Positions 322 through 38,304 of a stretch of 38,497 nucleotides of DNA are shown one piece after another. Where the stretch lies: NCBI GenBank assembly GCA_024401515.1, contig JAKSKY010000012.1, positions 1-38,497 of the forward strand. The letters run 5' to 3'. The position numbers and the translations under genes are program-made. The DNA comes from Paludibacteraceae bacterium (lineage in GTDB: Bacteria > Bacteroidota > Bacteroidia > Bacteroidales > Paludibacteraceae). Numbering within the stretch: position 1 is the stretch's first letter; every line of letters begins with the position of its first letter. The notes below the pieces were generated by a model. The model did not search any database. It saw nothing but the letters and a program-made list of their open reading frames with translations, and was not told where the DNA came from.

Positions 322-2895
322 ATGGAAAAAAAGAGTGTCAAATACGATATATCCGATGATGAGGTTCAGTACGTGTCGGAATCTCGAAGACGTTATGGAC
401 GGCTGCATACCTATATTAGTTTGTTTAGTAGTGCTGGCGTGGGATGCTTTGGCTTCAAACAAGAGGGGTTTCATTGTGTGGCGACGGTGGAGTTGCTTGA
501 TCGAAGACTTAAGATTCAAAAGTTCAATCGCAAATGCAGCGTGGAAAGTGGTTATGTCTGCGGAGATATGACCAAACAAGAAACGAAGGATAAGGTATTT
601 AATCAGATAAAACTATGGCATGATTTTTTCCTTGTTGACGATATAGATGTGGTAATAGCTACACCTCCTTGTCAAGGAATGTCTGTTGCTAATCACAAGA
701 AAAAAGACGAGAAGAAGCGTAACTCTCTTGTTGTGGAATCCATTCGTATGGTCAATCAAATTAAGCCTCGTTACTTTGTGTTTGAGAATGTAAGGGCGTT
801 CCTCACAACTTTGTGTACTGATGTGGATGGACAGGACAAACCAATACGCGAGGCGATAAACAACAATCTTTCCGGAAACTACAACATTCTCTTTAATGTG
901 CTGAACTTCAAGGATTATGGGAATCCTTCAAGCCGCACACGTACCCTTGTAATTGGCGTGCGCAAGGACTTGAAGGAGATAACGCCATACGATCTATTCC
1001 CAACGAAGCAACCAGAAAGAACACTTCGAGAGGTCATTGGGCATCTGCCTCCATTGCATACTATGGGCGAGATTTGGAACGAGGATATTTACCATAACTT
1101 CCGCAATTATGACCCGAAGATGGTGGCATGGATAGAGAATATCAAGGAAGGGCAATCTGCTTTTGACAATACGGAGCCAGAGCGACTGCCTCATACCATC
1201 AAGAATGGAATGCGAATCTTCAATGCGCAGAAGAATGGCGACAAATACACACGTCAGTATTGGGATAAGGTCCCCCCTTGTATCCATACGAGAAACGATA
1301 TTATGGCGAGTCAGAATACGGTTCACCCTGTAGATAATCGCGTGTTCAGCATTCGAGAAGTAATGCTTATGATGTCCGTCCCAAATGATTTCCAATGGTC
1401 GGAGGCTTCATTTGAGCAACTTAATGCCTTGCCATTAGCCGACAAGAAGGCATTCTTGAAGAAAGAAGAGATGAACATCCGACAGAATCTTGGAGAGGCT
1501 GTCCCTACAGTTATCTTCAAGCAGGTAGCCCATAATGTTCGAAAGATTGATGCCAGAAGAAGTTTAACCGAATCCGACATCGAGAACCTAATTAGTGAGA
1601 ATCATCTTGTTGTTCAAGATAATCTGCTCCGTTTTATCCAACATGCAACATCGTACAGTTTTGCCGAGTTAAGTAAGATTGCAGAACTCGCTAATGCTCA
1701 ACGCGAGAATAATGCTGCTTTTTACACACGTCAGGATATATGTTACACAATCATCAAGAGCCTGCCCGAGCTGAAAGAGCTTGGACAAGAGGTTCGTATA
1801 CTTGAACCATCTGTAGGTGTCGGCAACTTCCTTCCTACGCTCATTAGAAAGTACGAGAATGCAAAGAGTGTAACGATCGATGTTGTGGACATTAACGCCA
1901 ACAGCATTGAAATACTCAGAGCTCTTCTATACAAGATTACTATCCCCGAAAATATCCATATAAACTTTATCAACGATGATTTCTTATTGCATGACTTCGC
2001 TGATTGTAAGTATGATGTGGTGATCGGCAATCCTCCTTATATGAAGATAACCGGCGATAAGGATTTATTGGCAAAGTATAAGAAGGGGGTGGCAAACAAA
2101 GAGACGAATAATATCTTCTCTTTCTTTATTGAGAAATGCGTTCTTCTCGGGCGATTCGTTTCTCTGATTGTGCCGAAGAGTCTTGTCAATGCTCCGGAGT
2201 TTAACCGTACTCGTGCTCTGATGGAGCATTACAGAATGGAGCGTATCATTGACTTTGGAGAGAAAGGTTTTAAGGGAGTTAAAATAGAAACAATCAACTT
2301 CTTGTTGCGTACCGACAAAAAGCCAGCAGATACCATAGTTGAGTCATACATATCCGAGACGATTATGACAAGTGCCCAGTCGTACATCACAGATAGAACC
2401 TATCCCTATTGGTTAATTTACAGAAACGAAGCTTTCGATCTCGTGGCTGAAAAGATGCAGTTTGGTATCTTCAAGGCTTATCGAGACAGAGCTATTACTA
2501 AGAACGTAACAAAGGATTCAGGAAGTGTTCGCGTGCTAAAGTCAAGAAACATCGGAAGCAACTGCATTGAGAATATCGAGGGATACGATTGTTTCATGGA
2601 TGATGTCTCTGCTTTTGATGTAAGCAAATATTTGAACCAACCTAATTGCGTACTTCTGCCTAATTTGACGTACAATCCACGTGCTTGTTTCCTTCCAAAA
2701 AATTGTGTTGCAGACGGCTCTGTAGCTATTCTTACACTCATTGATGAAAATGAAAGCATTACAGAGAATGACCTTGCCTATTATGCCACAGATGAGTATC
2801 GACAATTTTACGCCATTGCCCGCAACAGGGCAACACGCTCTATGAACATCGACAATAATTCGGTCTTCTTCTTTGGTAAACTTAAGCAGAAATAA
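322..2895 (+). CDS. Fused C5-cytosine / N6-adenine DNA methyltransferase
   Basis: An 857-aa bifunctional modification enzyme. The N-terminal half is a C5-cytosine methyltransferase: SAM motif LFSSAG at 34-39, catalytic TPPCQG with Cys117, ENV at 155-157, an SSRTR motif near 203-207 and GEAVP at 391-395. The last is usually GNxV, so Glu replaces Asn. Residues about 210-380 would be its target-recognition domain. The C-terminal half is an N6-adenine methyltransferase of the Eco57I/TaqI type: AFYTR near 466-470, SAM motif EPSVGVGNF at 495-503, catalytic NPPY at 570-573, and a C-terminal recognition domain ending at the stop. Both catalytic sets look intact. It probably protects the two strands of an asymmetric site with different marks, as the separate HphI and MnlI methyltransferases do. 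It is followed three bases later by the nuclease gene. Mixed leucine and arginine codons differ from the host genes downstream. Confidence 0.93.
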   Translation: MEKKSVKYDISDDEVQYVSESRRRYGRLHTYISLFSSAGVGCFGFKQEGFHCVATVELLDRRLKIQKFNRKCSVESGYVCGDMTKQETKDKVFNQIKLWHDFFLVDDIDVVIATPPCQGMSVANHKKKDEKKRNSLVVESIRMVNQIKPRYFVFENVRAFLTTLCTDVDGQDKPIREAINNNLSGNYNILFNVLNFKDYGNPSSRTRTLVIGVRKDLKEITPYDLFPTKQPERTLREVIGHLPPLHTMGEIWNEDIYHNFRNYDPKMVAWIENIKEGQSAFDNTEPERLPHTIKNGMRIFNAQKNGDKYTRQYWDKVPPCIHTRNDIMASQNTVHPVDNRVFSIREVMLMMSVPNDFQWSEASFEQLNALPLADKKAFLKKEEMNIRQNLGEAVPTVIFKQVAHNVRKIDARRSLTESDIENLISENHLVVQDNLLRFIQHATSYSFAELSKIAELANAQRENNAAFYTRQDICYTIIKSLPELKELGQEVRILEPSVGVGNFLPTLIRKYENAKSVTIDVVDINANSIEILRALLYKITIPENIHINFINDDFLLHDFADCKYDVVIGNPPYMKITGDKDLLAKYKKGVANKETNNIFSFFIEKCVLLGRFVSLIVPKSLVNAPEFNRTRALMEHYRMERIIDFGEKGFKGVKIETINFLLRTDKKPADTIVESYISETIMTSAQSYITDRTYPYWLIYRNEAFDLVAEKMQFGIFKAYRDRAITKNVTKDSGSVRVLKSRNIGSNCIENIEGYDCFMDDVSAFDVSKYLNQPNCVLLPNLTYNPRACFLPKNCVADGSVAILTLIDENESITENDLAYYATDEYRQFYAIARNRATRSMNIDNNSVFFFGKLKQK

Positions 2896-2898
2896 GAT

Positions 2899-4599
2899 AT
2901 GGTAGTAGATATTGATAGTTTCCTGGATAAGTATGACGACTTCGATATTCGTCAGAACCATGATGCCCGTTATGTTGACCAAAAGTGTACGCCTGACATT
3001 GTGTGTTTTATTGCTGATTGCATCATCAGCACTTCATGTGCAACAAAACATTTCACTGTGAATGACCTTTGGGAAGAGCGTTACTTCATAGACAACTGTC
3101 GAGTGATTTTTGGTAAGCCTTCACCTTCTGATCCAAGCGCACGTAACGAGTACAATAAGGTGTTGTGCCAACCTCTGAAGTTGCTCGCATATGCCCATGT
3201 GTTACAAGTGATGTATATTGGTAAGCAACTGGATTTTTGTGTGAATGATGAAACCATGTTGGAATACATTGCCACAAAAGAGCGTAATGCTTACAGTTTT
3301 ATGCTCAAGTTCTTTATGAGAGTGGCTGAAGCAAGTGGTATCATGCGATTCTTTGAAGAATATAAATCAACTTGTGAAGCAAATCCACGGGCAGCTAAAG
3401 CTACAATTTATGAGAAGTATCATCGATTCATTTCTGCCAATACACCTTCTCATTCAAAGACGGATGTTGACCGTATTTTTCACAAGGTATTCAATCTTTA
3501 TGCTTACAGCAATATGCTTCCCGGCAGTCAATGCAAATTACTCGATTGGTACGATTTAATGTACAATAGGGTGAATTGGCGCGACAAGGATAAAAAGAAA
3601 AAGTCGTTGACTCGTGAGCAAGCTGTGAAAACTGAGATTGAGGAGATGAACCAAAATTTCTACATTGATTATCAAGTAAACAAGGCCATTCGAAAGGTAC
3701 GTCAAAGACAAGGAGAGGTGAGCGAGGTTAATGATGAATTGGCATCTGGTATTGCAACTGAGGTTCATCATATTTTCCCCAAATCGCAATTTCCTGAACT
3801 TGCTTCGTACTTCGAGAATCTCATTTTACTGACGAGTAGCCAGCATAGGCAGAAAGCCCATCCACGCAGCAACTTCCAAATTGTTGACAAAGAGTATCAG
3901 TTAGTATGTTTGATGGCGAAATCACGTACAGTAGAGAACTGCATAAAGGAAAATGGAGAGTCGTTCTATTCCAAGAAATCTTTTGTCTATGTAGTTAATA
4001 CGGGCACTGATACCGACGAACTTAACGAGTCTGCATCGTTTGATAAGATTCGTCGCTTTATCCACGAATACTACAACCTTGGAATGCATGCTACAGTTCG
4101 TGTGTATGCTGAAGTCGAACCGGCAGAAGAATACTCTCGCTTTTTGCCTTTGTATTCTTTGCGTGCAGCATGTGGAAAGTTCCTACATAACGAAACTCCA
4201 GAGATTATTGGTTGGATTGATGTGAAAAAGATTGATCCAAGTATTCCTGTTGGCGAGGATTGTTTCATTGTGAAAGCTGTTGGTGATTCGATGTTACCTG
4301 CTATTCATGATGGTGAGTATTGTGTATTCCGTCATAAGAATAGTGGTTTCCATAATGCAGATACGATGTTGTTTGAGATTCCAAATGACGATCCTGAAAC
4401 AGGTGGAGGCTACACTATCAAAGAATACATTCGTGAGAAAGTTTATGATAAAGAATGTGGATGCGAATATGTAGAATCAATTGTGCTTAAGCCTAAAAAT
4501 AACAGATATAAATCATTTGTGTTTGAAAAAGATGATTGTGGCAATGTCCAGCCTGTGGGAACACTAGTGGGGAAATTTAATGTGAAAAGTAGGGGTTAG
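2899..4599 (+). CDS. HNH restriction endonuclease fused to S24 (LexA/UmuD-like) peptidase
   Basis: A 566-aa protein, almost certainly the restriction partner of the fused methyltransferase, whose stop lies three bases upstream. Residues 1-270 resemble nothing I recognise and may bind DNA. An HNH nuclease site follows: E288, H290-H291, N307 and H316, in the spacing ExHHx15Nx8H. This is close to the published motif of the type IIS enzyme MnlI (Rx3ExHHx14Nx8H), though the leading Arg is not obvious. The C-terminus (about 415-566) is an S24 peptidase domain: LPLYSLRAACG with a Cys425-Gly426 pair, GDSM with Ser464, and Lys508 in YTIKEY. UmuD is cut at Cys24-Gly25 using Ser60 and Lys97, so the order and spacing match. 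No helix-turn-helix is seen, so it is not a phage repressor. Self-cleavage or damage-linked control of the nuclease is an inference. Confidence 0.88.
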   Translation: MVVDIDSFLDKYDDFDIRQNHDARYVDQKCTPDIVCFIADCIISTSCATKHFTVNDLWEERYFIDNCRVIFGKPSPSDPSARNEYNKVLCQPLKLLAYAHVLQVMYIGKQLDFCVNDETMLEYIATKERNAYSFMLKFFMRVAEASGIMRFFEEYKSTCEANPRAAKATIYEKYHRFISANTPSHSKTDVDRIFHKVFNLYAYSNMLPGSQCKLLDWYDLMYNRVNWRDKDKKKKSLTREQAVKTEIEEMNQNFYIDYQVNKAIRKVRQRQGEVSEVNDELASGIATEVHHIFPKSQFPELASYFENLILLTSSQHRQKAHPRSNFQIVDKEYQLVCLMAKSRTVENCIKENGESFYSKKSFVYVVNTGTDTDELNESASFDKIRRFIHEYYNLGMHATVRVYAEVEPAEEYSRFLPLYSLRAACGKFLHNETPEIIGWIDVKKIDPSIPVGEDCFIVKAVGDSMLPAIHDGEYCVFRHKNSGFHNADTMLFEIPNDDPETGGGYTIKEYIREKVYDKECGCEYVESIVLKPKNNRYKSFVFEKDDCGNVQPVGTLVGKFNVKSRG

Positions 4600-4649: not shown

Positions 4650-5201
4650 CTACTCTATCCCAATATACTTGTGCGTCTGAAGCGATAGCCGCCAATGTGG
4701 ATGCTCCAAGATGTATTGGACAGTCTCTTTCGTGTTTTGGCAGGAGCAAGGCTGTAGAAAATAGTGCTTCGCTTCTATTTGTGTGTGCCAACGCTCCACA
4801 TCGGCACGCTCGGTGAAAACCACCTTCACCTCGTCCGTTTGGGTTAAAATAGGCTCTTTGCCCTCTTTGGGCGATACGGTTACCCAATCTAGATTGCTGG
4901 GAACCTCGTGTGTGCCATTGGTTTCCATGGCCACCTTCTTGCCCAGGGCGTGAATCTTGTCCACCAGGCTCTCCGTCGCTTGCAAACTAGGTTCTCCACC
5001 GGTGAGAATCACCCATGGTGAGGCGTAGCCACTTACAATTTTGACGATCTCCTCCTCGCTCATCTCCGTATATGTTTCGTGCTTTGTGTCGCAGAAGGGA
5101 CACTTTAGGTTACAGCCTGAAAAACGTACGAAGACAGCGGAAGTTCCCGTATGGAACCCCTCGCCCTGAAGACTCATGAATATCTCGTTAATCCTCTTCA
5201 T
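4650..5201 (-). CDS. queE: 7-carboxy-7-deazaguanine synthase QueE
   Basis: Radical SAM enzyme that converts 6-carboxytetrahydropterin to 7-carboxy-7-deazaguanine, the ring-contraction step of queuosine precursor synthesis. The 4Fe-4S motif CNLKCPFC (Cys30, 34 and 37; CX3CX2C) follows FMSLQGEGFHTG, and the SAM-binding TGGEPSLQ segment lies mid-protein. At 183 aa it has the short length usual in this phylum. I start it at the ATG at 5201. Reading further to 5210 would need a TTG. The ATG overlaps the end of queD by 14 bases, which suggests translational coupling. It is the last gene of the que operon and converges on the restriction gene. Confidence 0.95.
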   Translation of the reverse strand: MKRINEIFMSLQGEGFHTGTSAVFVRFSGCNLKCPFCDTKHETYTEMSEEEIVKIVSGYASPWVILTGGEPSLQATESLVDKIHALGKKVAMETNGTHEVPSNLDWVTVSPKEGKEPILTQTDEVKVVFTERADVERWHTQIEAKHYFLQPCSCQNTKETVQYILEHPHWRLSLQTHKYIGIE

Positions 5202-5523
5202 AGGTGGCAATGTTACCTTCAGATTCTTGTACAGTCACCTTGTAACAGGTGTCAATTTGCTGGCAGATCCAGTAGGCGAGATTCTCCGCGGTCGGATTGA
5301 GGTCGCCCAACACGTCGTTGAGCACTTGGTGGTCCAACTTGCCCTTGATCGCCTTCTTGATGTGGGAGAAGTCCACGATCATGCCGTCCGCATTGAGCTC
5401 CTTCGCCTTGCAGTGAACCGTCACAATCCAATTGTGCCCATGAAGGTTCTCGCATTTGCTGGCGTAGGATAGTTTCAACTTGTGTGCCGCAGAAATCTCG
5501 AATCTCTTTGATATATAGTACAT
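5188..5523 (-). CDS. queD: 6-carboxy-5,6,7,8-tetrahydropterin synthase QueD
   Basis: A 111-aa member of the 6-pyruvoyl-tetrahydropterin synthase family; converts dihydroneopterin triphosphate to 6-carboxytetrahydropterin. Zinc ligands His14, His28 and His30 (HGH), nucleophile Cys24, and the Asp64-His65 pair are all visible, with a Glu near 101 in the pterin-binding position. The context (queC upstream, queE overlapping downstream) separates it from the eukaryotic-type tetrahydrobiopterin enzyme. No GTP cyclohydrolase gene is in the window, so the substrate must be supplied from elsewhere. Confidence 0.95.
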   Translation of the reverse strand: MYYISKRFEISAAHKLKLSYASKCENLHGHNWIVTVHCKAKELNADGMIVDFSHIKKAIKGKLDHQVLNDVLGDLNPTAENLAYWICQQIDTCYKVTVQESEGNIATYEED

Positions 5524-5535
5524 ATCTGTTCTGTT

Positions 5536-6189
5536 TTAATCTTCGTAAATAGTTTTGTCCTCCATTCCTGCGTCACGTAGCGCCTCCTTGCGCTCCATGC
5601 AGGTGCCGCATTTGCCGCAATGTTTTTCGCCTCCTTTGTAGCAACTCCAGGTCTGGGTGTAGTCCAACCCTAAATCCTTGCCCCTCTTCACTATGTCTGT
5701 CTTGGAGATATGGGTATAGGGTGTTACCAATGTGATGCCGTCGTAAGTGCCTGCCGCGATGGCTTGGCTCATGGCATCCGCGAATTCGGGACGACAATCC
5801 GGGTAGATGGTGTGGTCGCCGCTGTGGTTAGCCATCATGACGTGCTTCAGACCGTTGGACTCCGCCAGTCCAGCAGCAATGGCGAGCATGATCCCGTTTC
5901 GGAAAGGAACGACGGTCGATTTCATGTTCTCGTCGTCGTAGTTGCCCTCTGGAATTGCGTCCGCACCCTCCAAAAGCGAACTTTTGAAATAGGACTTCAT
6001 GAAGGAGAGGGGAATCGTCACATGTTTGATGCCTAACTTCTCGCAGTGGTATTGCGCGAAGGGAATCTCCTTGTCGTTATGGTTACTGCCGTAGTGGAAT
6101 GAGACCGCCAAGGCGATGCGCTCCTGGTACTCATAGAGCAGGGTGGTGCTATCCATACCCCCGGAAAGGATAAGAACACTATCTTTCAT
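5536..6189 (-). CDS. queC: 7-cyano-7-deazaguanine synthase QueC
   Basis: ATP-dependent enzyme that turns 7-carboxy-7-deazaguanine and ammonia into preQ0. The 217-aa protein begins with a PP-loop, LSGGMDSTT (about 8-16), and ends with four zinc cysteines: Cys183, Cys191, Cys194 and Cys197 (CGKCGTC). Both are family hallmarks. It lies 12 bases upstream of queD and 18 bases downstream of queF, consistent with a single transcript. Confidence 0.96.
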   Translation of the reverse strand: MKDSVLILSGGMDSTTLLYEYQERIALAVSFHYGSNHNDKEIPFAQYHCEKLGIKHVTIPLSFMKSYFKSSLLEGADAIPEGNYDDENMKSTVVPFRNGIMLAIAAGLAESNGLKHVMMANHSGDHTIYPDCRPEFADAMSQAIAAGTYDGITLVTPYTHISKTDIVKRGKDLGLDYTQTWSCYKGGEKHCGKCGTCMERKEALRDAGMEDKTIYED

Positions 6190-6207
6190 CGCAAATAAGG
6201 ATATGGA

Positions 6208-6681
6208 TTAAATATTATGGTTCATCATGGCCACCAAACGGGCCTGTTTCATCTCCTTGTGCGCCTCGTCCGCATAGTTGGCGAATGGATAGATGGAGAT
6301 GCCTCCTCTCGGTGTGAAGATACCTACTACCTCCAAATACCTAGGCTCCATCAGCTTCACCAAATCCTTCATGATGATATTGATGCAATCCTCGTGGAAA
6401 TCTCCGTGGTTACGGAAACTGAAAAGGTAGAGTTTCAAGGATTTGCTCTCCACCATTCTCTCTCCTGGAATGTAGTTGATGATGATTTTCGCAAAATCAG
6501 GTTGTCCGGTCTTGGGACATAGACTGGTGAACTCGGGACAATTCAATGTGACAAGGTAGTCTTGTTCCGGATGTTTGTTCACGAAAGTCTCCAATACTTG
6601 TGGCGCGTAATCGGTTGGATAAACCGTCTTCTTGTCGCCTAATAGGGTTACCCCCTCCAATTCATTCTCTGTTCTAGACAT
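6208..6681 (-). CDS. queF: NADPH-dependent preQ0 reductase QueF
   Basis: Reduces the nitrile of preQ0 to the aminomethyl group of preQ1, the last step before insertion into tRNA. The 157-aa protein has the short, single-domain form. Catalytic Cys55 lies in [14 protein letters not shown] with Asp62 close by, followed by the family motif [20 protein letters not shown] (Glu78 binds substrate). It is the first gene of queF-queC-queD-queE. Its presence means the cluster makes preQ1 for tRNA rather than stopping at preQ0. tgt and queA are not in the window. Confidence 0.95.
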
Positions 6682-31556: not shown

Positions 31557-34500
31557 TTATCTTCTTATCAACGTGAAATGTCCAGCGAATTGACGACTGA
31601 TTTCCTCTATTTCGATCAGATACCAGTAGTCTGTGGATGGCATCTCATGGCCGTTATAGGTTCCATCCCATCCATCCGCCTTGGCGCCTAGGTACTCTGC
31701 CAATAGTTTTCCGTAACGGTCGAAGATCTTTACGGTGGCGTTTGGATATACTTGGGCTAAGTTGCCGACGATCCAAGTGTCTTTCACGCCATCTCCATTA
31801 GGGGAGAACCATGGATCGATCATAATGGACGGTGCCATTACTTCGAACGACATGGAACTTTTGCATCCCTTTTCATCTTGGACGTAGGCGATGTGTTTGC
31901 TGAACTTTAGATTGTCGAAGAGGCTGGATTCTGAACGTGTGTCATCCATGTCCACCCAATATGTGAAGGCGCCCGTGCCTTTGCCTGGAACGGTAATGAT
32001 GTTGCGTTCCCGGATGCCAGTGGAGTCTATGGCTGAAATCTCTGGTAATGAGGTGATGGCCAATGTGTAACTCTCTTCCGCTTTACATGTGCCTCGCGTC
32101 ATCTCCAAATCATATGTTGTGGTTTGGATAGGCTGGTCATGGAGTGTCTCTTCGGAAGATTTCGTTTCACCCAAAGCGCTCCATGTGTATTGGCTGGCTT
32201 GGTAGGAGGATGCGTCTAATTTTACTTTGGAACCTTCGCAGATCGATTCCGGTCCGGTGATTTGACCACTCAAAGGCTCATCCACCTTCACAGTTACCGT
32301 GTATTCCTTCTGGTCTTTACAGAACTCGTTGTATGCCACCACCTTGTAAGCATATACGGATTGGTGGTCTGTGCCATTGTTGTAAATTGGCTTGGCCGTA
32401 ATGGATTCGCTCTCTCTTCCGCTTGTGATGGTAGGGTCCTCTTTCCATGAAATGGTGGTTCCCTCTGGCGCGACATCCGAAACGCTTAATACGGTCTCCT
32501 CTCCCTCGCAGATGGTTGGCGTCTCCGGTAATTTGACGCTGATGGCAGGAATTACGTTGACATGGATGGTCGTGTCTTCCTGTTGTTCCCTGTATTTGAA
32601 TATGATTTTATAGGTGGCGGATGATTCTCCCATGATCAGAAGCTGCAATTTGCCGTTCTTTAGCGTAAGCTTATCTTCCGTGTATTTTGTTGTGGAACCA
32701 TCCATTTCCCGTTCCACATACAATTCATGCTTCACGCCCTTCGCCTCTTGACGGAATGCGCCAGTGCCCGTTGTGTCTATCTCCATGACGGAAGTGCTGT
32801 TCTCACACATGGTTGCGGTTAGCTCCACCTTTAAATGAAGCAATGCGTCCACCCATACTGTAGCTGAGGTTTGGGCGGAACAATAGGCTGGGTCGGACAA
32901 CTCGATGGTGTAGGTGTGGTCCGTATCGATCGCTGGGATGGTGTAGCTTGTGGCGGAGGATTCTTGGAGGATTTCTCCCTTCTCTACCCATGCGATCTTT
33001 TCTACCGACGATGGTATTACCCCTTGGAGGGTGATGGTGTAATCTTGACTGCGAGGAGCGATCATCTCCGCCTCGAAATCATTGACTTGAATGTATGGTA
33101 GAACATCCAATTTCTTGGAATCGCCCTTTCTCGTACAACCTCCATTGGTGACAACATAGGCATACTGGCCTTCGTCATTTTTCTCGGTAACTTTTGCTTG
33201 TGTATAGGTCGCTTCATTGCCTCCTGTTAGGATGCTTCCGTTCAAGTACCACTGGATTCGAGGTGTGTATCCGCTACCGGCGGTCACTGTAATCTTATCG
33301 GTGAAGCTTTCATATTCGCATAGAGAAATTTCCTCTGGAGAAGGTGTTACAGAGAATGGTTGGTTGTGTACCAAAATTTGCGCCGATGTGTTACATTGAT
33401 TGATGTAACGAACCTCGTATACCAAGTCCGACGCTTTGTCTGAAGCCTCAATCTTTAGGGAGGCTCCCTCTCCGATCTTTTTGTTGTCCAAATACCATGC
33501 GTAGTCGCCCTCGCTCTTTTCGTAGTCGACGCTTAATGTGACATCTCCACCACAAGTGTAGACTTCCCTCTCCACATCATCCTTGAATCCGTTGGTTGGT
33601 AGGGAAGTGTTGCCGTTTTCTATCTCCTCTGAAATAGTCATGGTTCCTACAACAGGACCGTCACCTACTGTGACATAGAATGAGTCCGAGGTCATTTCGC
33701 AGGTATTGGCGATTGCCTTCACAACGAAACCGTATCGGGTACCGACTTTGTTCGATGTCTCGAAACTGTAACTCTCTCCTTTGTGCGCTGAAGCGATGCC
33801 TGTGCCTGAAATTTCATAAGAGACGCTTGGCGCATATTCATCGGACTTGGCCTTTAAATCCACCTGTGTCAAAGGACATGCGGTGGTTGGACTGTCATAG
33901 AAGTAAGGTTGAGTCAAATGGTCGATTTGCACCTTGATTTCGGATGGCTCGCTATAGCAGGTGGCATTCTCCACTATGATGTTGTCGTCCTTAGTCGCGA
34001 TGGAGTAGGATAACTCTACGGTATAATCGCCGGATGCATCCACGCTGCTCTCCACCTCTTTGGATGCGTCGTTTTTGTAGACTGGAGTTAGTTTGCCCAC
34101 TTGGTCTGGATTCGACACGCTCCATCCTGCGGACAAATCCACCTCGCCGTCGCACTGTGCGGGGATCTCCTCCGGCGTGATTTGTGGTTTAGGATATACC
34201 GTTACCGTTACCTTCGTAGGGGCGCTCTCCGCTTTGGTGTCCGGATCGTATTGCGTTACGTAGTAGTCATATGTTGTTTGCTTATGTGCGGTTACCTTGG
34301 CCTCAGACACGGATGGATCGTAAGGATTGTCAGTGACAAACTTCGCGTCTGTGCTGGTGGTAGGATCTGTGGTTCCGTACCAACGTATTTCATACGTTTT
34401 AGGGTTGGATGGATCCATTTGATCGGCCGTAGCTTCCAATTTAGGGAAGGCGTCACCCTCACAAACGAACGCGTCTTTCGCAAGCGGTGGAAGCGCATCG

Positions 34501-37500
34501 CTGATTCGGATGGTCAAAAGCACAGGTGTGCTAGGACATGCCAATGGATTGCTCTTGTCGATGCGGGTGACATAACAGTAGAGTGTGGCTGTTCCTCCCG
34601 CCAATGTGTTGACGTCGTAGTTGGGTTGAGGGGCTTTCACCTCCCAATCCTCTGGGTTGGTGCTAGGCAATGAACTGCTCTCTGAAATGGTTGAATATTT
34701 GTATGTATAACCCTCCTCTTCCGTCCAATAGGATGTCTTTTCGGTCAATGCGGGGAAGTTGTTGCTTGCGTCCGCATCAGACTTGATGTATTGGATAGTG
34801 GCCGAACTAGGAGCGGATGATTCGTAGACATTCACGAAGATGTTTGCCTTCTCAGAACTTTCACAGGTGGTAATACCATCTGGTAAAGTGTAGGTGGCGG
34901 TCACACCGTAAGTGTGCTTGCCAGCCTCCTCTGTGGATGGTGTCGGTGCGGTGGTGACGCCTGTTGTAGCATCCTCCTCGTACCACAAGTAACCATTAGC
35001 CTTGATGTAATCGGAGGTGCTTGCCGCCGCGCTTGCCGTTAATTGGCTTGGTGTGTCGCCCACACAATAATTGATTTCGTCCTCGTCCAATTCAGGTACA
35101 CCATATACTTCCACAACAATGGTGGCCGGATCACTCTCATTGTTTCCTAAATGAGGGTTGAAGGCGGTGTGCGGTTGGTTAGGAGTCTTGAACTTTGTGT
35201 CCTTTTGGGTGACATAGTAGGTCTGTTTTCCTGCTGCCGTCGTGTTGACTGCGGTTGGGGTAGAGGAACCTTTGTTTTCGTTGTCTTCGTACCAAACCAA
35301 TTCATAATCGGAAGCGTCTCTGCCATCCGCGGGATTGATCTCCGCCAATGTCGCTAAATCAACAGTTGAATTGACACAAACCACGGTGTCTCGTGTCTTA
35401 GGGGATGGCATGGAGGTGATGACGACGGTTACCTTGGCGGTGTCGCTCTCACATCCCTCTTCTGAAACTTGGGTGACCCAATATTCGAAAGTGCCTGCCG
35501 CTGACAAGGGCAATTCGGGCGCTTTGTCGCTTGCGCTTCCTGGATATTTATTGTACCAGTTGAGGCTGTTTTTGCCTGTTGCTGTCGCTGCCCCCGTGAA
35601 ATCGGCGTTGCCGGAACCGATGGCCAAGTTTAAATCCTTGGTCTTGGGTTTGTCTGGAATCGCGTTGTATGCGATGGTGACGCTCGCTTCTGGGCTTTCG
35701 CAATATCCCTTCGCAATGGCTGTCACCTTTAATTCTCCTACTTCGGTCTCTCCTTTAAAGGTGGTCTCTCCGCTTGCGAGGGTGAATTCCGCACCGTCCA
35801 ATGTGGCGGTTATCGTCGCGGTGGATGGCGTGACATTAGTCGTCAGCATAGATTCCCCGCAGAGGGTGTCGAGCAATAACTCTACCTCGGCGGTAGGGTT
35901 CACGTCCATGGTGTATTTGCGCTTGCCTTTGCAACCATCAGCGGAATAGCCGATGAAGTAGATGCTGGTTTTCTCCGATAATTCGAACGTGTAATCTTTG
36001 TCCGCCTCCTCTTTGGAGAGTTCGGTGAGGTCATTCTCTTTGTCGTCTTGCCATTTCCAAGAGACTATTTCGTCATTCTCGACACCCTTTAGGGTTACTT
36101 CCGCTCCCTTACAATCTGAGCCTGTGAAATCGTTACCCATGTCGATGTCTCCCGCACGGGTGATGATGAATGGATCTGAAATGGAGTAGTCGCTACAATC
36201 GTCGCCTGTGATCACGGCGTTCGGATTCTCCCAGAATGCGTCCAAGGCTGAGGAGGAACCTACTATCACACGGATTTGGATTTCCTCCGCTTTCGCGAAC
36301 TCTTTGGTCTCCACACTATAGGAAGCCTTGTCGATATTGGCTAGGTTGCTCCATGTCTTTCCTCCATCCACACTAGCTTGGTAGAGGAATCTGGCGATGC
36401 CTCCGAAGTAGTCCTCCAACAATTTGCTGGTAGGCGCCTGTACGGTGATGGTGGCATCTGAACAGATGGTGGTGTCCTGCGTGAAGTTCTCCAAGTCTGA
36501 ATAGATGTTGATGGATGGAGGTGCGCAGGTCATGAACTTGATGTCGTCGATGATCAAGTCGTTTCCTTTCTCCCAGTATTGCCCATCGTTGCATCTGCTG
36601 CCGCAATCCGCTACCACTTGCATAACGACGGAGGTGGCATCTTTTACAATGATATCCTCAATCTTCATTTGAATCCATCCACCATTGGCGCTGGCCAATA
36701 CATTCTCTTGTTTGCCGTATACAGTGGATAAGTCTGTACTCATGATGTAGATGGAGACGTATGGATCCTGTCCGCCACTCATGTTGGCGATGTAGGTCTC
36801 GAATGTCAACTCCTTGTTGGCGCACAAACCGTCGATTTGTGATTGGAAAATTGGACCTGAATAGCCCGAAGTGCCTGTTGCCGCTTGGTAATTCTTGTTC
36901 ACGTTGATGAAAAGTGCCGCACCGTTGGCGTTGCCGTCAAGGGCGGAGGTGTGGTCGGCTACTACACCATTCATCCATTCGGCCATGGTGTATGGGTCAT
37001 TGTCGTTGGTGTAATAACCCTTAGGTGTAGGTACGATTACGGCGTAGGTTCCATCGTTGATTTGGCCTCCTTTGATAGCACCTGACTTGGATCCTGTTGT
37101 TCCGCTCGCATCGTCATAGTCGTGCATTGGAATGTTGAAGGAGGTGTTGGTGCGGTAACTGAAATCAACTTTTGACTCATCTCCATCTTTGTTTACGTAG
37201 GTGTAGGCATCCTTGAAGTGTCCGAAATCTTCGAAGAATACTGTTTTTCTGGAAGCGGGTTTATTGTTTACTTCGCAGCAAACGACAGGTTCCACGTCGA
37301 ATGGCTCGGTCATGATGCCATCCATGGTACAGCGTACAGATCCCTTCTTCATGATCTCCTGCATCACACTCTTTCCTGTTCCGATGACGCTCCAACCGCT
37401 ACCGTCGTTCCATTCCCACTTGTAGGAGGATGCGTTATACTCTTTGTTAAGGGAGAAGAGCGCTTGCTCTCCTTGACATACTTTGGATCCTTGGGAGGAT

Positions 37501-38225
37501 TTGATGACTGGGTTAAGACATCCTTGGATTTTCAAACCGGAGAAGATGATATAGTCATATTCATTGAAATTATATCCTGTTTGGATGATGAATGTGACGC
37601 TGCTCTCTGACGCTCCGAGCTTGTATTCGTAGTCGATGGCGACCTCCCCTTTGTCGTAGGGTACTGCGAGATTTTTCATGTCGCCGGCGGTACCTACCTG
37701 GAGGTTGGGACTGTTTTCGTTCTTCCAATTATAAGTTTTTCCGCCATCGTAGGATACTCTATGGAACCCGTCGTCCTCATCCGCATAGACCACACTTACG
37801 CTTCCAGTCACCTTTACGGTGGTGCCCGGCTTGATGTTGGTGACGGTGAAGGTGAGCAGTTGTGCTAGTTTGTCACATTTTAGTGAGGTCACCATCACGG
37901 GCTGGTCCATCATCGGGAATGTCTTGACTAAGCGGGGAAGGGAATCTGTCACCGCATAGACAAAGCGGGTGGAATCGGGGTGGAACGCATGGGCGGAATC
38001 CGCCAATGTGGCTGATGTGCCTAAAAAGTTACCCATCGGGCCATCCAATTCGACGTTGCTTATGGAATAGTAATAATCTCCGTCATGTCCCATAGAGGGT
38101 TTGAAAGAGGTTGAACCCGCTAAATTGGGACAGTCTTGGGCGAAAGTGTTCACACAAGCGCAACATGCCAAAAGAGTCGTGATCACATGACTGATTAGCC
38201 TTCTATTTATGCTTTTATAGTTCAT
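31557..38225 (-). CDS. Giant secreted Ig-like protein with gliding-motility (T9SS type B) C-terminal domain
   Basis: A 2222-aa exported protein. The signal peptide (about 1-30, ending VNTFAQ) supports the ATG at 38225; 14 further residues would need a TTG start at 38267. An N-terminal beta-rich region (about 30-320) is followed by a jelly-roll-like module (about 330-590, FFEDFGHFKDAY to DDIKFMTCAPP). Next come many Ig-like domains, each with a Cys near its start (VCVNSTVDL, YCVGDTPSQL, VCEGDAFPKL, ICEGEETVLSV, ICEGSKVKLDA) and a late Trp. The last 85 residues (about 2138-2222) start WFSPNGDGVKDTW and end FAGHFTLIRR. This is the gliding motility-associated type B sorting domain handled by the type IX system. 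The likely role is a surface adhesin or fibre; no enzyme motif is seen. In many Bacteroidetes such proteins lie beside a PorP/SprF gene, but none is in view. Confidence 0.9.
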   Translation of the reverse strand: MNYKSINRRLISHVITTLLACCACVNTFAQDCPNLAGSTSFKPSMGHDGDYYYSISNVELDGPMGNFLGTSATLADSAHAFHPDSTRFVYAVTDSLPRLVKTFPMMDQPVMVTSLKCDKLAQLLTFTVTNIKPGTTVKVTGSVSVVYADEDDGFHRVSYDGGKTYNWKNENSPNLQVGTAGDMKNLAVPYDKGEVAIDYEYKLGASESSVTFIIQTGYNFNEYDYIIFSGLKIQGCLNPVIKSSQGSKVCQGEQALFSLNKEYNASSYKWEWNDGSGWSVIGTGKSVMQEIMKKGSVRCTMDGIMTEPFDVEPVVCCEVNNKPASRKTVFFEDFGHFKDAYTYVNKDGDESKVDFSYRTNTSFNIPMHDYDDASGTTGSKSGAIKGGQINDGTYAVIVPTPKGYYTNDNDPYTMAEWMNGVVADHTSALDGNANGAALFINVNKNYQAATGTSGYSGPIFQSQIDGLCANKELTFETYIANMSGGQDPYVSIYIMSTDLSTVYGKQENVLASANGGWIQMKIEDIIVKDATSVVMQVVADCGSRCNDGQYWEKGNDLIIDDIKFMTCAPPSINIYSDLENFTQDTTICSDATITVQAPTSKLLEDYFGGIARFLYQASVDGGKTWSNLANIDKASYSVETKEFAKAEEIQIRVIVGSSSALDAFWENPNAVITGDDCSDYSISDPFIITRAGDIDMGNDFTGSDCKGAEVTLKGVENDEIVSWKWQDDKENDLTELSKEEADKDYTFELSEKTSIYFIGYSADGCKGKRKYTMDVNPTAEVELLLDTLCGESMLTTNVTPSTATITATLDGAEFTLASGETTFKGETEVGELKVTAIAKGYCESPEASVTIAYNAIPDKPKTKDLNLAIGSGNADFTGAATATGKNSLNWYNKYPGSASDKAPELPLSAAGTFEYWVTQVSEEGCESDTAKVTVVITSMPSPKTRDTVVCVNSTVDLATLAEINPADGRDASDYELVWYEDNENKGSSTPTAVNTTAAGKQTYYVTQKDTKFKTPNQPHTAFNPHLGNNESDPATIVVEVYGVPELDEDEINYCVGDTPSQLTASAAASTSDYIKANGYLWYEEDATTGVTTAPTPSTEEAGKHTYGVTATYTLPDGITTCESSEKANIFVNVYESSAPSSATIQYIKSDADASNNFPALTEKTSYWTEEEGYTYKYSTISESSSLPSTNPEDWEVKAPQPNYDVNTLAGGTATLYCYVTRIDKSNPLACPSTPVLLTIRISDALPPLAKDAFVCEGDAFPKLEATADQMDPSNPKTYEIRWYGTTDPTTSTDAKFVTDNPYDPSVSEAKVTAHKQTTYDYYVTQYDPDTKAESAPTKVTVTVYPKPQITPEEIPAQCDGEVDLSAGWSVSNPDQVGKLTPVYKNDASKEVESSVDASGDYTVELSYSIATKDDNIIVENATCYSEPSEIKVQIDHLTQPYFYDSPTTACPLTQVDLKAKSDEYAPSVSYEISGTGIASAHKGESYSFETSNKVGTRYGFVVKAIANTCEMTSDSFYVTVGDGPVVGTMTISEEIENGNTSLPTNGFKDDVEREVYTCGGDVTLSVDYEKSEGDYAWYLDNKKIGEGASLKIEASDKASDLVYEVRYINQCNTSAQILVHNQPFSVTPSPEEISLCEYESFTDKITVTAGSGYTPRIQWYLNGSILTGGNEATYTQAKVTEKNDEGQYAYVVTNGGCTRKGDSKKLDVLPYIQVNDFEAEMIAPRSQDYTITLQGVIPSSVEKIAWVEKGEILQESSATSYTIPAIDTDHTYTIELSDPAYCSAQTSATVWVDALLHLKVELTATMCENSTSVMEIDTTGTGAFRQEAKGVKHELYVEREMDGSTTKYTEDKLTLKNGKLQLLIMGESSATYKIIFKYREQQEDTTIHVNVIPAISVKLPETPTICEGEETVLSVSDVAPEGTTISWKEDPTITSGRESESITAKPIYNNGTDHQSVYAYKVVAYNEFCKDQKEYTVTVKVDEPLSGQITGPESICEGSKVKLDASSYQASQYTWSALGETKSSEETLHDQPIQTTTYDLEMTRGTCKAEESYTLAITSLPEISAIDSTGIRERNIITVPGKGTGAFTYWVDMDDTRSESSLFDNLKFSKHIAYVQDEKGCKSSMSFEVMAPSIMIDPWFSPNGDGVKDTWIVGNLAQVYPNATVKIFDRYGKLLAEYLGAKADGWDGTYNGHEMPSTDYWYLIEIEEISRQFAGHFTLIRR

Positions 38226-38304
38226 AAACTTTGTATTAATCAATATACAACAAGATATATTTAACAATCGTAATATGTGCGTGTCTGTTTTCTAAAATTC
38301 TCGC

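Follow-up and report, generated by a model that had tools for sequence, protein, structure and literature searches.

A response to DNA damage through RecA is established for the S24 proteins LexA, UmuD and lambda CI. In LexA and IrvR, a fragment produced by self-cleavage carries a ClpXP-dependent C-terminal degron directly beside the autocleavage site (PMC5742171; this paper and the two that follow are cited from excerpts). LexA, lambda CI and the non-canonical LexA of Bacteroidetes, in which the SOS response is run by S24 repressors with reported experimental support, have the self-cleaving S24 domain placed C-terminal to an effector domain, a helix-turn-helix repressor (PMC8565304). UmuD and UmuD', a subunit of DNA polymerase V of E. 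coli, have a Cys-Gly bond, a Ser-Lys dyad, the S24 fold and a short arm before the cleavage site; UmuD is free and encoded together with UmuC. How a restriction system avoids killing a host that is damaged or unmodified has been worked out for some Type I enzymes and involves ClpXP and HsdR; following DNA damage, restriction by Type IA and IB systems is alleviated through destruction of HsdR, which the protease degrades directly (PMC12707154).

Here, we describe a restriction gene of a Paludibacteraceae bacterium whose product ends in an S24 domain. The window, that is, the whole stretch of DNA analysed, is one complete contig of 38,497 bases, and belongs to a genome of 2.70 Mb that is 88% complete. 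As in LexA and CI, the S24 domain is C-terminal to an effector domain, but the effector is a restriction enzyme: Pfam found no helix-turn-helix family in the 566-aa protein, the N-terminal part of which is the restriction endonuclease. The tail has the four features listed above for UmuD; unlike UmuD, it is fused to the end of the enzyme and its key residues are more widely spaced.

The restriction gene and its S24 tail

The restriction gene has an ATG start, is uninterrupted, and begins at position 2899, directly after the end, at position 2895, of a methyltransferase gene; the product of the latter is presumed to be the cognate modification enzyme, an assignment made from sequence. Pfam (PF00145, 9.9e-40; PF07669, 6.7e-20; PF02384, 8.1e-8) and PADLOC (MTase_II PDLC03277, 9.7e-235, residues 29-855) both identify this methyltransferase. 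The ORFs directly downstream of and convergent to the restriction gene (4650-6681, minus strand) are, by eye, what we take to be the queuosine precursor genes queE, queD, queC and queF. Elsewhere in the window, a 2236-aa protein (31557-38267, minus strand) has an Ig-like domain and, at its C-terminus, a CHU_C Type IX secretion signal.

Table 1. Features of the restriction locus, in positions of the window
Feature	Positions	Strand	Basis
857-aa DNA methyltransferase, C5-cytosine methyltransferase fused to N6-adenine (Eco57I-like) methyltransferase	322..2895	+	Pfam, PADLOC
566-aa restriction endonuclease with C-terminal S24 tail	2899..4599	+	ORF, Pfam, PADLOC
Type II restriction endonuclease body, residues 1-393	2899..4077	+	PDLC03488; whole by itself in relatives
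HNH active-site region, residues 286-321	3754..3861	+	invariant H290, H291, N307, H316; weak Pfam HNH
S24 / UmuD-like tail, residues 396-566	4084..4596	+	Pfam S24, tail profile, AlphaFold2 model, Foldseek
Predicted self-cleavage bond Cys425-Gly426	4171..4176	+	aligned with the UmuD CG bond
Predicted catalytic Ser464	4288..4290	+	Ser in 46/46 tails
Predicted catalytic Lys508	4420..4422	+	Lys in 46/46 tails

Judging from its sequence, the body of the protein (residues 1-393) is an HNH Type II restriction enzyme. The PADLOC Type II restriction endonuclease family PDLC03488 covers residues 5-377 (E 4.4e-75), while the Pfam HNH family PF01844, at residues 286-319, falls under its cut-off (17.2 against 21.4 bits); an NCBIfam scan of the whole protein gave no match, and a profile of the enzyme body had no match among solved structures up to an E-value of 0.1. 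The preliminary description of this DNA had proposed an HNH site formed by E288, H290, H291, N307 and H316. In an alignment of eight sequences, the window included, the last four are invariant; the E288 column, however, holds E, H or A, and this residue is not conserved.

For the tail, the same description had named an S24 domain with Cys425-Gly426, Ser464 and Lys508, all of which are at the positions claimed. Peptidase_S24 (PF00717) matches residues 451-545 barely above its cut-off (E 9.8e-6; 25.7 bits, cut-off 23.3), whereas the tail profile A1, of whose 13 rows the window is itself one, scores the window tail at about 200 bits. The window protein on its own found no S24 structure at E<=0.001 (the best, LexA, at 0.54), and S24 structures were reached only with a profile: one of 26 tails had as its top matches in the PDB UmuD (8gmt, in complex with RecA, 2.9e-5) and then LexA (8gms, 3.8e-5). 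In that alignment an A-x-G motif of the tail lies over the UmuD CG bond, Ser over Ser and Lys over Lys, at what we take to be UmuD positions C24-G25, S60 and K97. The claimed likeness to UmuD thus holds for the order of the residues and only approximately for their spacing, the distances from cleavage bond to Ser and from Ser to Lys being 39 and 44 in the window as against 36 and 37 in UmuD.

The structure prediction and profile search that had been suggested as a check on the S24 fold gave concordant results. An AlphaFold2 model of the tail alone, built from seven sequences, has a pLDDT of 83.0 and a pTM of 0.80, and Foldseek matched it at E<=0.001 to 30 structures, every one of them of LexA, UmuD or lambda repressor (LexA at 1.7e-7, CI at 6.4e-5), RecA complexes of LexA, UmuD and CI among them. 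A LexA/UmuD-type fold for the tail is therefore supported by the predicted model and, at the level of the fold, the refuting outcome named in the preliminary description has not arisen. A full-length AlphaFold2 model, made with relatives of the restriction enzyme only, was set aside, as its S24 part had a pLDDT of about 30 and the model was uninformative on the packing of the two parts; a mixed alignment of enzyme and tail (A5) was discarded because the tails were misaligned. Together, the sequence, the profile and the predicted fold support the presence of an HNH restriction enzyme and a UmuD/LexA-type S24 peptidase in one chain.

The window enzyme shares residues 1-393, the HNH residues and a methyltransferase partner with the PDLC03488 family, in which HNH enzymes occur with fused or paired C5 and N6A methyltransferases, but the S24 tail is absent from all 16 relatives examined (L002; L017; L113-L117, of which L115 and L116 are near-copies; L126-L129; and five from the order survey, four of them with ORFs of only 394-426 aa, a length that leaves no room for a tail, and the fifth, L139, read through its end). 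The closest, L002 of Candidatus Colimorpha pelethequi, is a stand-alone protein of 410 aa, 89% identical over residues 1-393. Because every examined relative, including one as close as this, is tailless, the tail is, by comparison with these sequences, an add-on to the restriction enzyme; and since the enzyme body is complete alone in L002 and tailless in the 15 others, it seems not to need the tail. Among the tailless relatives are complete genes that adjoin methyltransferases, and one that is fused to a methyltransferase. The enzyme family is present in 7 of the 393 order genomes, and only the window's own genome is also among those with a tail match (in an equal-sized sample); a second genome with an HNH-S24 fusion was not found in the order survey (393 genomes).

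Two of the relatives have other partners in the chain. At L017:12155-14911 (plus strand), an HNH enzyme 36% identical to that of the window is part of a 919-aa chain with a MAC/perforin domain (PF01823, 3.7e-12) and a weak TPR match. At L139:1492-4179 (minus strand), in another genome of the order, an N6A methyltransferase-like part and the HNH enzyme share one chain (open frame reported as 1286 aa).

Occurrence of the tail on other restriction enzymes

With the tail profile, matches at E<=1e-10 were found in 8 of 16 genomes of the genus sample, 17 of 200 of the family sample and 13 of 393 of the order sample, and matches at E<=1e-15 in 18 of 395 genomes of the phylum sample; the samples overlap and each contains the window's own genome. 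In the order sample, the matches are strong in 9 of the 13 genomes (10 places, 173-230 bits, in ORFs of 567-1161 aa), the others being three UmuD-sized ORFs (153-165 aa, 43-46 bits) and one partial match (80 bits). In all, 46 distinct places not of the UmuD kind were found, 43 of them readable; with one viral contig these make 44 tails, a set from which the three UmuD-like ORFs (153-165 aa, 43-46 bits) and the partial tails G350:C18, G503:C67 and G007:C7 (L030, in which no ORF passed) were left out. Addition of a second Type III Res (L120) and of a locus on a Halomonas plasmid (L118) gives the 46 tails used for conservation. All 44 tails end at most 15 residues from the end of the ORF.

The N-terminal parts of the tail hosts fall into unrelated BLAST clusters, and host classes were taken from these clusters, with Pfam run on 18 of the 44 hosts (the window; L018, L020, L022, L025, L026, L027, L029; L065, L066, L068, L071, L075, L076, L098, L102, L107, L108) and on L120. 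On this basis, the 44 hosts comprise 18 SLFN-g3 helicase proteins, seven Type ISP enzymes, six SauUSI-like (Type IV) PLD-helicase-DUF3427 proteins, four specificity subunits, three LlaJI-type and two HsdR-like proteins, one Type III Res (L065; the second, L120, lies outside the 44), one HNH Type II enzyme, that of the window, and two unassigned fragments. The 18 SLFN-g3 hosts were divided by GIY-YIG using Pfam for seven (without: L018, L022, L066, L068; with: L029, L071, L107) and length for the others. None of the 42 tails with an assigned host is on a stand-alone methyltransferase, the hosts being nuclease/helicase chains or specificity subunits. The fusion given in the preliminary description is real, but that account had missed the portability of the tail, which is found on many other kinds of restriction enzyme. 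Within one kind the tail may be present or not: in the phylum sample, five of eight strong DUF3427 proteins (>=250 bits) have it (ORFs of 1127-1160 aa) and three have none (975-988 aa), while none of 22 more DUF3427 matches, weaker or cut, coincides with a tail match.

The surroundings of the hosts were also inspected. Proteins matching N6_Mtase in Pfam adjoin three of the four specificity hosts (L025, L026, L075) and a 668-aa protein with an LNPPY motif adjoins the fourth (L028); these hosts may be 'BcgI-like'. One LlaJI-type host adjoins an AAA_5 protein and a C5 methyltransferase, and the Type III Res of L065 lies directly after a 566-aa gene with an IDPPY motif, while the HsdR-like host L108 has AAA/SMC-like neighbours and, in a motif search, no methyltransferase motif nearby. 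A crude motif search found methyltransferase-like neighbours at 7 of the 43 non-window hosts, but missed the L025 neighbour found by Pfam. Few such neighbours are expected for Type IV, SLFN-g3 and single-chain Type ISP hosts.

Among viral contigs, P0001 had no relative, A1 one match (L065) and A3 seven, of which L120 is the tailed Type III Res, L119 and L121-L124 are S24 proteins of repressor size (211-251 aa), and L125 is without a match to the tail profile. One tail searched against phages had no match, and two searched against plasmids found Halomonas and one LexA-family regulator of Geobacillus. On the Halomonas plasmid (L118:4013-6483), an ORF that is by eye SLFN-g3-like helicase and an ORF of the S24 tail lie in different frames, owing to a frame break or a sequencing error. 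This locus shows that the tail module occurs outside Bacteroidota.

Conservation and relationships of the tails

Over the 147 columns scored, the only fully invariant positions in the 46 tails are Gly462, Ser464, Lys508 and Leu530. The residue before the predicted cleavage bond (P1, residue 425) is Cys in 23 tails and Ala in 23, and the agreement at these sites goes beyond a chance resemblance. Cys is found in the Type ISP, specificity, LlaJI-type and HNH hosts and in eight SLFN-g3 hosts labelled as without GIY-YIG, and Ala in the SauUSI-like, HsdR-like and Type III hosts, ten GIY-YIG-labelled SLFN-g3 hosts, the fragments and the Halomonas SLFN-g3 piece. P1' (residue 426) is Gly in 44 of 46. 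The exceptions are both Type III Res tails (L065:5298-8456 and L120:2908-6444), in which Thr follows the cleavage Ala and the Ser and Lys are kept; perhaps, therefore, not every tail cuts, and judging from this residue the Type III Res tails may be weak at cutting or unable to cut. At P2 (residue 424), 44 of 46 tails have Ala; four UmuD-like proteins have V, Q, Q and A there, and phage-type S24 proteins from the scan of viral contigs also vary.

A tree of the 44 tails groups them by host type, with 10 label changes as against a least possible 9 and a mean of 29.6 when labels are shuffled. As the tree groups in this way, each host type may have gained the tail about once, a reading that is uncertain given near-copies and open forks inside the SLFN-g3 groups. 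The tree has two main halves of modest support (82/96). The window tail stands apart on a branch of 2.33 changes per site, long and without a sure neighbour, and has His485 where 44 of 46 tails have Arg; both observations suggest that it could be drifting.

A possible damage switch and its alternatives

We infer that the tail works as a damage switch: it would cleave itself and the nuclease would thereby be removed, a form of restriction alleviation built into and borne by the enzyme. We put the probability of this reading, which comprises cleavage, dependence on RecA and an 'off' direction, at about one half. While the DNA is intact, the enzyme would keep its tail and restrict normally. When the DNA of the cell is broken, RecA filaments formed on single-stranded DNA would bind the tail and stimulate Ser464 and Lys508 to sever it between Cys425 and Gly426. 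The nuclease would then end in LRAAC, which could act as a C-terminal degradation signal for ClpXP-type proteases, like that of the LexA and IrvR fragments, and loss of the nuclease would turn restriction off while the host repairs its DNA or has unmodified sites. The proposed outcome, loss of the nuclease upon damage, is that of Type IA and IB alleviation, but there the protease attacks HsdR itself, whereas here a self-cutting tail would expose the signal (PMC12707154).

Several lines of evidence bear on this reading. Cleavage would leave 44 of 46 hosts with an Ala-Ala or Ala-Cys end, which fits a LexA-type degron giving HsdR-type alleviation. With Ala at P2 in nearly all tails and varied residues in the UmuD-like proteins, a comparison that rests on four such proteins, the exposed end varies less than cleavage would appear to require; this argument is not independent, since the P2-P1 residues are partly fixed by the chemistry of cleavage. 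As to direction, a tail that kept the enzyme off until cleaved could leave the genome unmodified in Type ISP and specificity hosts, and an enzyme that is on until cleaved is thus favoured. Loss of activity on cutting is further favoured by the placement of the tail, by the complete tailless relatives and by the hosts with modification in the same chain or complex. By analogy, UmuD provides a counterpoint, since its cleavage activates its partner instead of destroying it. The window's own genome has RecA and, elsewhere from the restriction locus, a UmuD-like gene followed by a UmuC-like gene (UmuC by eye). The published Bacteroidetes SOS box CTAA-N5-TTAG, with one mismatch allowed, was rejected as a link to the operon: the window has 6 matches where chance predicts 10.9, and none lies upstream of the operon. 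The UmuD locus gave a similar result (1 match against 1.4 expected). A search for the ssrA tag of the host through tmRNA returned two weak matches, both tRNAs.

More broadly, and with somewhat less than even confidence, we suggest that a common clip-on, UmuD-like self-cleaving tail, present in Bacteroidota and in at least one Halomonas plasmid lineage, is carried by nearly every restriction type (HsdR-like, Type II HNH, specificity subunits, LlaJI-type, Type III, Type ISP, SauUSI-like Type IV and SLFN-g3), that its RecA-triggered cut would expose a degradation signal, and that the SOS signal of the host would in this way switch all of them off.

The opposite direction, in which the nuclease is held back by its tail until phage infection or damage exposes single-stranded DNA and cleavage stimulated by RecA releases an enzyme of higher activity, appears unlikely to us. 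In the PDB, the sequence that the tail profile matches best is UmuD, which is activated by cleavage, in polymerase V (PMC8565304), and many hosts (SLFN-g3, SauUSI-like, HsdR-like) resemble strong nuclease/helicase effectors. However, there are tailless relatives that are complete genes beside, or fused to, methyltransferases; where the tail shares a chain or complex with a methyltransferase or specificity function, as in Type ISP enzymes and specificity subunits, restraint could hit modification as well, and a restriction enzyme activated in a damaged cell would presumably endanger the host. It is distinctly improbable, in our view, that the S24 fold is kept mainly for docking, with cleavage secondary, so that by binding RecA filaments, UmuC or, through dimerisation, another S24 protein it brings the enzyme to damaged or invading DNA. 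The RecA complexes among the fold matches and the lack of the P1' Gly in both Type III Res tails would suit such a role, but docking alone leaves unexplained why none of the 46 tails has lost the Ser or the Lys and why P1 is restricted to Cys or Ala.

Cleavage might also be a constitutive maturation step, made soon after synthesis and unconnected with damage, for instance to shape the activity of a new system until methylation is complete; we think this very unlikely. At high pH, S24 proteins are able to cleave themselves in the absence of RecA, but under normal conditions cleavage at sites of the LexA/UmuD type is slow unless RecA is present. It is known that restriction needs to be delayed in a newly entered host (PMC12707154), yet the tailless relatives manage without such a device. 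Most improbable of all is that the fusion is an accident, a functionless in-frame joining or an assembly chimaera of a restriction gene and an S24 gene. It is true that the fusion was found in one genome only among those searched, and that the window tail is on a long branch without close relatives; against this, tens of genomes have the same tail, identically placed, on enzymes that are unrelated to one another, and the catalytic and cleavage residues of the window are intact despite its divergence.

We found no description of S24-tailed restriction enzymes in the literature searched, which covered mostly titles and the beginnings of abstracts, with most subscription papers and bioRxiv preprints outside it; the terms S24 and LexA are absent from PMC3874153, PMC12839542, PMC10853773, PMC3710099, PMC12707154 (in excerpt) and PMC11090510, and UmuD too from four of these. 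The component families are known, and it is their arrangement, and its recurrence across restriction types, that appear to be new. To our knowledge, the protection of a damaged or unmodified host has been much less worked out for restriction types other than Type I. The presence of the tail on many kinds of restriction enzyme suggests a common means by which restriction is switched upon damage to the host's own DNA; the point mutants for a test of this are already specified by the alignment. If the proposed switch is correct, a self-cleaving SOS-type tail would be a general answer across restriction types and would link restriction directly to RecA; nucleases would join repressors and a polymerase subunit as carriers of S24 switches, and a damage-triggered switch would have been moved by nature between enzymes.
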